Source: Chloroflexota bacterium (GTDB taxonomy: Bacteria > Chloroflexota > Anaerolineae > J036 > Brachytrichaceae). Taken from it: a stretch of 38,535 bases of DNA. The stretch spans positions 1 to 38,535 of the forward strand of contig JANXLU010000004.1 in assembly GCA_025354985.1 (NCBI GenBank), given 5' to 3'. The number at the start of each line of letters is the position of its first letter. The first letter of the stretch is position 1. Below, piece by piece: positions 26,304-27,805 of this stretch. A program made the translations under genes and the position numbers. The notes below the pieces were generated by a model that ran no database searches, was not told where the DNA came from, and worked only from the letters and a program-made list of their open reading frames with translations.

Positions 26304-27041
26304 ATGATGCATTTAATAAAGTTGGCGCTTATGTGCATGGCAGGCACGGCACTGTGGATGGCAACCAGTGTGACGTCGTTATTCGCCGCGCAATCAGTTG
26401 ACGCAGGACAGACGAGCGCGCTGTACCAGGATGCTGCGCCGCATACGATCTACCTGCCTGTCGTTGCCGGTGACCACATCCCGCCAGACTTTATTCCCGC
26501 GGCAGACAGCCAACTGTCGGCCGGTACGAGTCGGTTTGGTTGGTTCGTTATTCGGCCGGGAATTATTGTTATCGCTTCCGGCCCATCCACAATCGTGGCC
26601 AATCAGATCATCATACGTGGTGTGCTTCGGGCGACTTGTGGCGCGCTGGATCTGCGTGCCTCGGTGCAGCTTTCAATCATTGGCGCGCTGGACAATGGCT
26701 GTGATAGCGCCCAAACACTGCCCCCACCGCTTTCATTATCCACACCATCAACAGGTGCGTTCGTGCTGGGAGAGCCAGGCGTCACGGCAACTTTGCACAC
26801 ATCCGGTGTGCTTAACATCAGCAATGCGACCGACATTCCGGTTTGGGAGTTTGATGTGCCTCGTGGGGCACGGAGCGCAACCAAACTGCCACCCGCGTGT
26901 TTTGCAAAAACAGTGTGCGCAGATGAGCTTGCGTTTGTGCTCGTCTGCGCACACGGCTATTTTTCGTCCAGCGCTACCGGGGCCAATGGCGTTGATAGAC
27001 TAATCAGCGCCAGTGACGCCTTAATTACACGCACTTGCTGA
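26304..27041 (+). CDS. Secreted hypothetical protein
   Basis: A 245-residue protein with an N-terminal signal peptide (MMHLIKLALMCMAGTALWMA ... SLFAAQ). The rest is beta-rich with VIRPGIIVIASGPSTIVANQ and several cysteines, but I recognise no family. ATG at 26304 or 26307 is the likely start. The last 28 codons overlap, in antisense, the 3' end of the selenoprotein gene (26957-27041). Because that gene's C-terminus looks conserved, the end of this hypothetical is less certain. It is divergent from the FTR1 gene. Confidence 0.5.
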   Translation: MMHLIKLALMCMAGTALWMATSVTSLFAAQSVDAGQTSALYQDAAPHTIYLPVVAGDHIPPDFIPAADSQLSAGTSRFGWFVIRPGIIVIASGPSTIVANQIIIRGVLRATCGALDLRASVQLSIIGALDNGCDSAQTLPPPLSLSTPSTGAFVLGEPGVTATLHTSGVLNISNATDIPVWEFDVPRGARSATKLPPACFAKTVCADELAFVLVCAHGYFSSSATGANGVDRLISASDALITRTC

Positions 27042-27805
27042 GCGGTATTGTTTGGATGTCCCAAGGTAGAACCGCGCGGCAGTTGCGTGATTGTCACACG
27101 TGGTGGCTTTATCGGTTCCACTCGATCCTTGTTTCGCGTTGTCATCACGGTGGCGATGCCTTCGATCTCAAGCGCCCTGGTTATCAATCCAACGGACTGA
27201 TCGCAGATTGGTCAGCTTGGAACCAAAAACGCGCATTCGGCGTGGAGCCGTTTTGCGCTGCTGATGATCGCCGGGATGGTCTCCGCCAGGCACCTTCCCA
27301 CATCAGGTTGAAAGCCCATAAAGCTAATGAAGTTGTCTGCCAATCCTCCGATCATTCCACCGGCGATCAGTGTATCAAGATGATTTAGCGGAACCAATAC
27401 TTGCGGATCCTGGTTCACCGCGGCATGGTCATAGTGTGTATGTGCAAATGAAATGGATCGTAGCGGTGTGGTCACAGCAATCTCACGGATTGTGTAATCT
27501 CCGAGATTGTTTTCAGCGTCGAACCGTGATTGCGTGCTGGCATCGAATCCACCCGCGGAGGATATGAATAGTAGGTTTGATTTCTTCAGATCAATGCCTG
27601 GTGACGAGATCAAAGATTGGTTTCGAGGCGCCTTGTAAAGGCTCCAGTTTGGTTTTCCAGTGCTGCGATAGTCAGTCATCCATCCGGACTCAAATTCAGC
27701 CGTCCAACCCGGAATATCATCGAGAACGTTCATAAACATCTGGATGATACTTGTTGTGAAATTGAACCTTTCACCCGGCCGGCTGGGTATCATAGGTTTC
27801 GCCAT
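26957..27805 (-). CDS. PrdB/GrdB-like selenoprotein (in-frame TGA = selenocysteine)
   Basis: A 282-residue protein of the glycine/sarcosine/betaine/D-proline reductase component B family, if the TGA at 27212-27214 is read as selenocysteine 198. Before the [29 protein letters not shown] (82-87), [20 protein letters not shown] and [16 protein letters not shown]. The text across it is [20 protein letters not shown], the family redox motif UPxC followed by Q and a conserved helix, then RLPRG-like [17 protein letters not shown]. The frame stays open for 84 codons after the TGA. AGGA lies 7 nt before the ATG at 27805. The physiological substrate is unknown; anaerobic D-proline reductase is only a homologue. 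Confidence 0.85.
27185..27210 (-). promoter_or_regulatory. Candidate bacterial SECIS hairpin
   Basis: The RNA just after the UGA can fold: CAAUC (27210-27206) pairs with GAUUG (27189-27185), extended by two U-G wobbles, a bulged U, C-G and G-C pairs, and a small apical loop containing AUCAGUC. Bacterial SECIS elements lie immediately 3' to the UGA in the coding region and bind SelB. This fold was drawn by hand and its energy not computed, so it is a candidate only. Confidence 0.4.

Follow-up and report, generated by a model that had tools for sequence, protein, structure and literature searches.

A gene on the minus strand of the 38,535-nt stretch of a Chloroflexota genome analysed here (contig JANXLU010000004.1; hereafter the window) very probably encodes a real selenoprotein that stands alone and is not the PrdB subunit of D-proline reductase. 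Judged from sequence comparison, the TGA at 27212-27214 almost certainly inserts selenocysteine (Sec). The original prediction of a selenoprotein hidden by an in-frame TGA is upheld by a complete Sec machinery in the genome, an alignment column that holds only Sec or Cys, a SECIS-type hairpin confined to Sec-form genes, and selection on the codons that follow the TGA. Standard gene calling would shorten the gene at this internal UGA.

Re-reading the frame from 27805 to 26957 (minus strand) returned exactly one internal stop, the TGA at 27212-27214, followed by 84 codons and then TAA; the text and coordinates first given for the interrupted frame and its open continuation were thus correct. The 282-residue product proposed for the read-through kept its frame and its TGA, but its start lay 24 codons too far upstream. 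Close relatives all start at the equivalent of M25 (27733): three of them (L018, L019 and L021) align to the window protein from residue 25, with an in-frame TGA in L018 directly preceding the Met equivalent to M25, and two congeners (L108, L109) and a further family member (L110) share that start point. Because all close relatives begin there, the start was placed at 27733 by alignment with L018-L021, L026 and L108-L110, and on this comparison the gene is best written as 27733-26957 (minus strand; 27733-26960 coding, then the TAA stop), with a predicted product of 258 residues that carries Sec174 (Sec198 of the 282-residue reading) and ends in LDEK. The ATG at 27805 is also disfavoured because it leaves no gap to the ATG at 27806 of a divergent ene-reductase-type gene (NADH:flavin oxidoreductase, PF00724, 228 bits; 27806-28873, plus strand), the two codons abutting with zero intergenic space. 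The 72 nt of open frame at 27734-27805 (minus strand), into which no relative reaches, is probably untranslated leader or intergenic DNA. Elsewhere in the window, translations read by eye revealed two close argininosuccinate-synthase-like ORFs (20605-21939 and 23338-25320) and, between the two, an argC-like ORF (22448-23383); the second synthase-like ORF seems to be a fusion, with a GNAT acetyltransferase-like domain in front.

A search for selA, selB, selD and tRNA-Sec, which had been proposed as a check on the prediction, found all four in the window genome (4.19 Mb, 95.8% complete). The tRNA-Sec scored 65.3 bits against a cut-off of 47 and was also called by ARAGORN as tRNA-SeC with anticodon TCA; SelB, SelA and SelD scored 317, 510 and 381 bits against cut-offs of 242, 268 and 125, respectively. 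SelD is itself the Sec form, with its own in-frame TGA in the reading CAGUAGK. Further candidate selenoproteins in the same genome are two AhpC/TSA-like ORFs with an in-frame TGA: one (L112; G000:C91:82200-83900, minus strand) reads RHFGUIFCRAELARL and has a predicted hairpin, GGCCAGGUUGGCC, downstream, and the other (L111; G000:C19:170800-172600) reads DDTSLUTEQ. One congener (G405, locus L108) has a Sec-form gene and hairpin, yet its only SelA match is weak (1.4e-8) and below cut-off, the genome being fragmented and 91% complete; this reflects either an assembly gap or a loss of Sec synthesis.

Scanning 400 genomes of the phylum recovered a relative in 97, and in most of these the match contained a single TGA. 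Across 57 aligned distinct homologues, the Sec-site column (position 198 of the longer reading) held Sec in 41, Cys in 16 and no other residue, in line with what the prediction had led one to look for; every close relative, congeners included, has the identical TGA. The second Cys of the UxxC motif, the probable resolving Cys177 (codon 27203-27205, minus strand), is Cys in 56 of the 57 and Sec in the remaining one. Amino acid identity to six close relatives was 42-55% before the Sec codon and 49-60% after it, which bears out the claimed conservation past the TGA, and in the same six comparisons dN after the TGA was 0.37-0.53 while dS was 1.3 or more, or saturated. These values indicate that purifying selection acts downstream of the TGA and that conservation after it equals conservation before it, beyond what chance would give. 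Residues G61, D79, D109, P115, G140, 174 (Sec/Cys), C177, R186, G192, T195, R212 and G225 were invariant in an alignment of 34 proteins in which Sec is written as C, so that the invariance of C177 hides one UxxU sequence.

Directly downstream of the UGA lies a SECIS-type hairpin (27185-27199, minus strand; CAGUCC-GUU-GGAUUG) of 6 bp with a 3-nt loop that starts with G, the published criterion for such elements being a small apical loop that contains a G (PMC1088965). The hairpin occupies nucleotides 15-29 after the U of the UGA, where the general form is CAGUCC-GUN-GGACUG; members of the family have CAGUCC-GUG/GUC-GGACUG, and the window version contains one G-U wobble. A full 6-bp stem was present in 35 of 41 Sec genes as opposed to 0 of 16 Cys genes, and shifting the pairing partner by 1-3 nt lowered the Sec-gene mean from 5.68 pairs to at most 2.83. 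In one locus (L048) the sequence differs and the pairing is retained through compensatory changes (CACACC-UGU-GGUGUG). The window hairpin was energetically unremarkable in single-sequence folding (z -1.58), 2.7% of its synonymous recodings also reached 6 of 6 pairs, and an Rfam scan of the downstream RNA returned nothing decisive. Because the window hairpin is unremarkable when taken singly, it is by itself weak evidence, and the SECIS argument rests on the comparison between Sec and Cys genes.

The clade to which the window protein belongs is small and has so far been found only in Chloroflexota. Four of the 28 genomes of the family hold the gene, two congeners among them, the other three copies being 52-56% identical to that of the window; within the genus it occurs in two of three other genomes, and a genome of another genus of the family also has it. 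Scattered further Chloroflexota carry the gene as well (Ardenticatenaceae, Oscillochloris, Caldilineae and Anaerolineales), and a peptide-pattern scan of 84,980 species with the window protein returned Chloroflexota only. One genome (G240; L091, about 6425-6631, minus strand) retains a gene remnant confined to sequence beyond the Sec site. No gene was common to the neighbourhoods of seven window-clade loci and three further family members; this patchy presence and the changing neighbours suggest repeated loss or transfer.

Sister clades differ in their surroundings. An AhpC/TSA peroxiredoxin ORF, identified with Pfam, lies near the Cys-form gene in 11 of 16 loci (L074, L075, L079-L081, L083, L084, L086-L089), although many Cys loci come from one family and the 11 do not amount to 11 independent events. 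In L083, L080 and L074 the peroxiredoxin runs in the same direction at a distance of about 17-73 nt, and in others it lies within a few kb; at several Cys-form loci it is the gene immediately upstream on the same strand. A peroxiredoxin-type ORF also sits beside one Sec locus (L052/L070). There, at L070:2421-4046, two selenoprotein-like genes are adjacent: a PrdB-like gene whose motif (UPIU) contains two UGA codons and, directly downstream, a redoxin with its own UxxC (GSWURCREQLP); the additional peroxiredoxin-type ORF is on the opposite strand. The next gene after the PrdB-like selenoprotein gene at L069:2215-3826 is iodothyronine-deiodinase-like (PF00837). Among ORFs adjacent to Sec-form loci, DUF547 was found in 6 of the 92 scanned and the rest were scattered; at L059:5224-6156 and similar loci the DUF547 gene adjoins the Sec-form PrdB-like gene. 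The window clade's own loci had no such peroxiredoxin-type neighbour and no conserved neighbour of any kind, and a literature search found no paper linking PrdB-like proteins with peroxiredoxin.

One may postulate that the TGA acts as a normal stop codon, or that the gene is degraded, and that the short product before it is functional. Standard annotation would indeed call the ATG-to-TGA ORF, and the G240 homologue survives only as a fragment; the shared TGA of all close relatives, the Cys that replaces it elsewhere, the purifying selection beyond it and the restriction of the hairpin to Sec genes nevertheless make this reading extremely improbable. Another possibility is that the protein is the PrdB subunit of a Stickland-type D-proline reductase whose PrdA is diverged, or unassembled, elsewhere in the genome. 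The best curated match is in fact the PrdB model TIGR04483 (E 4.2e-30), and GD..R, H..YD, UxxC and PR are common to the window protein and to PrdB proteins encoded beside PrdA, but the score of 104.9 bits falls well short of the equivalog cut-off of 300. PF07355 (GRDB) passed its gathering cut-off (27.9 bits against 22) through a match limited to profile positions 221-316, and NF040794 scored 35.6 bits; at 258 residues rather than about 430, and with no GrdE partner found, the protein does not fit GrdB either. As a PrdB reference set we used genes beside prdA in annotated records of Terrisporobacter, Enterococcus and Ligilactobacillus, together with two sequences that have no annotated gene at the match. 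At the active site these have UGTCHR or CGTCHR (L098-L100, L103, L104) and the window protein has UPICDQ; the UPxCxQ motif originally attributed to PrdB is instead that of the stand-alone relatives. A maximum-likelihood tree built from 64 sequences placed the five PrdBs together (100/99) and joined them to the Cys clade (99/92); the window protein with six relatives formed a separate clade (100/100), whose stem measures 1.18 changes per site. The pyruvoyl subunit of PrdA and GrdE (PF09338) was not found in 41 of the 45 genomes tested, the window genome among them, and its detection in the other four served as positive control of the search. No prd genes neighbour the window gene. The D-proline reductase reading was rejected on its sub-cut-off score, the missing PrdA, the different motif and the different clade, and we consider it very improbable; on the same grounds the protein is, as far as sequence can tell, a stand-alone member of the superfamily rather than part of D-proline reductase or glycine reductase. 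The label PrdB/GrdB-like accordingly holds at the level of the superfamily and fails for PrdB proper: alignment with PrdB-like proteins gave a common core and Sec/Cys site, with a motif and clade that differ. Such genes ought not to be annotated as proline reductase.

Two further readings concern what the protein does. Joint work with the ene-reductase at 27806-28873 as an electron-delivering flavin partner would fit an adjacent, divergently transcribed oxidoreductase gene, and the head-to-head arrangement was correctly described in the original prediction; the ene-reductase was not adjacent at any other locus read, however, including those of congeners G405 and G407 and family member G408, and because relatives, even congeners, have other neighbours the arrangement carries no weight and the partnership is very doubtful. 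GrdB-type reductive cleavage would have Sec attack a carbon that carries a leaving group (amine or halide) to give a Se-alkyl adduct, with a carbonyl other than the PrdA/GrdE pyruvoyl group, or none, taking part. A Sec-site core common to GrdB and PrdB speaks for such chemistry, and the farB/farE pair, which is of GrdB/GrdE type and for which cleavage of the C-F bond in fluoroacetate has been proposed, offers a precedent (PMC10838667). Known members act with a pyruvoyl subunit, though, which was not found here, and the sister-clade neighbours suggest thiol-peroxide chemistry over substrate catabolism; we regard this proposal as unlikely.

An AlphaFold2 model of the protein was confident (pLDDT 94.9, pTM 0.92) and depicts an alpha/beta protein in which U-P-I-C falls between a strand (167-171) and a helix (177-190), a position where redox or nucleophilic residues are commonly found. 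Searches of PDB sequences with phmmer and with profiles found no credible relative, Foldseek gave no match at E 0.001 or better, and VIA-align matched generic folds (Rossmann-like and periplasmic-binding) with Z no higher than 8.3, roughly the range expected without relatives; neither of the two structural comparisons yielded a confident match pointing to a reaction. The conserved Sec/Cys-x-x-Cys is that of UxxC thiol oxidoreductases, and this pair, with the missing pyruvoyl partner, favours a self-contained oxidoreductase over a Stickland-type reductase. In the mechanism we propose, the UGA would be read as Sec by SelB and tRNA-Sec, aided by the hairpin just downstream, to give a 258-residue alpha/beta protein with active site U174-P-I-C177 that most likely acts alone as a thiol/selenol oxidoreductase. 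The Sec174 selenolate would attack either the disulfide of a partner or a small substrate that is oxidised or electrophilic; Cys177 would resolve the adduct to a selenenylsulfide, which thioredoxin or a similar reductant would reset. Self-contained Sec/Cys oxidoreductase chemistry with thioredoxin recycling is thus the function we infer as most likely. A role in peroxide or electrophile defence, suggested by the peroxiredoxin-type neighbours of the sister clades and by general UxxC chemistry, may be entertained tentatively. More speculative still, and on balance improbable, is a broader scenario in which stand-alone GRDB/PrdB-like proteins are pyruvoyl-independent Sec/Cys oxidoreductases serving peroxiredoxin-type defence and D-proline reductase arose when one of them recruited PrdA; this origin is compatible with the tree, in which PrdB and the peroxiredoxin-linked Cys clade come together, and with the neighbour data.

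The window protein belongs to an already known family, in which it falls into a distinct clade. PrdB-like selenoproteins were reported from the Sargasso Sea in 2005 (42 Sec genes; PMC1088965) and from the GOS data in 2008 (235 Sec and 110 Cys forms, pfam07355, UxxC), and marine surveys count them among their most abundant selenoproteins (PMC2398784); a 2026 review lists selenoprotein families (PMC13188914). Like the window protein, the marine proteins named proline reductase PrdB (PMC1088965, PMC2398784) are, by their published description, assigned to this family, carry UxxC, occur as Sec forms with Cys counterparts and have a predicted redox function. New here is evidence that such genes in Chloroflexota are mostly unaccompanied by PrdA, fall into clades apart from PrdB and are partly linked to peroxiredoxin; the missing PrdA and the peroxiredoxin link of the sister clades give a testable idea for the function of partnerless PrdB-like proteins.

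Among characterised systems, PrdB itself (TIGR04483; Acetoanaerobium, Terrisporobacter, Enterococcus) is homologous to the window protein over about 200 residues, with the same Sec/Cys site and a common core of GD..R, H..YD, D...P, MG, UxxC, PR and G..G; in annotated records its genes adjoin prdA and a CBO2463-type gene, whereas the window gene has no prd neighbours. Selenoprotein B of glycine, sarcosine and betaine reductase (GrdB, GrdF and GrdH; PF07355) aligns to the window protein through its C-terminal half; models of this type span about 430 residues and the enzymes work with a GrdE partner, while the window protein has neither the N-terminal half nor the partner. The Cys homologues of three Chloroflexota families (f22, f30 and f48; L074-L089) belong to the same family of proteins and have Cys at the Sec site (CPLCHR); they are without the SECIS hairpin, usually have a peroxiredoxin gene nearby, and group with PrdB in the tree.
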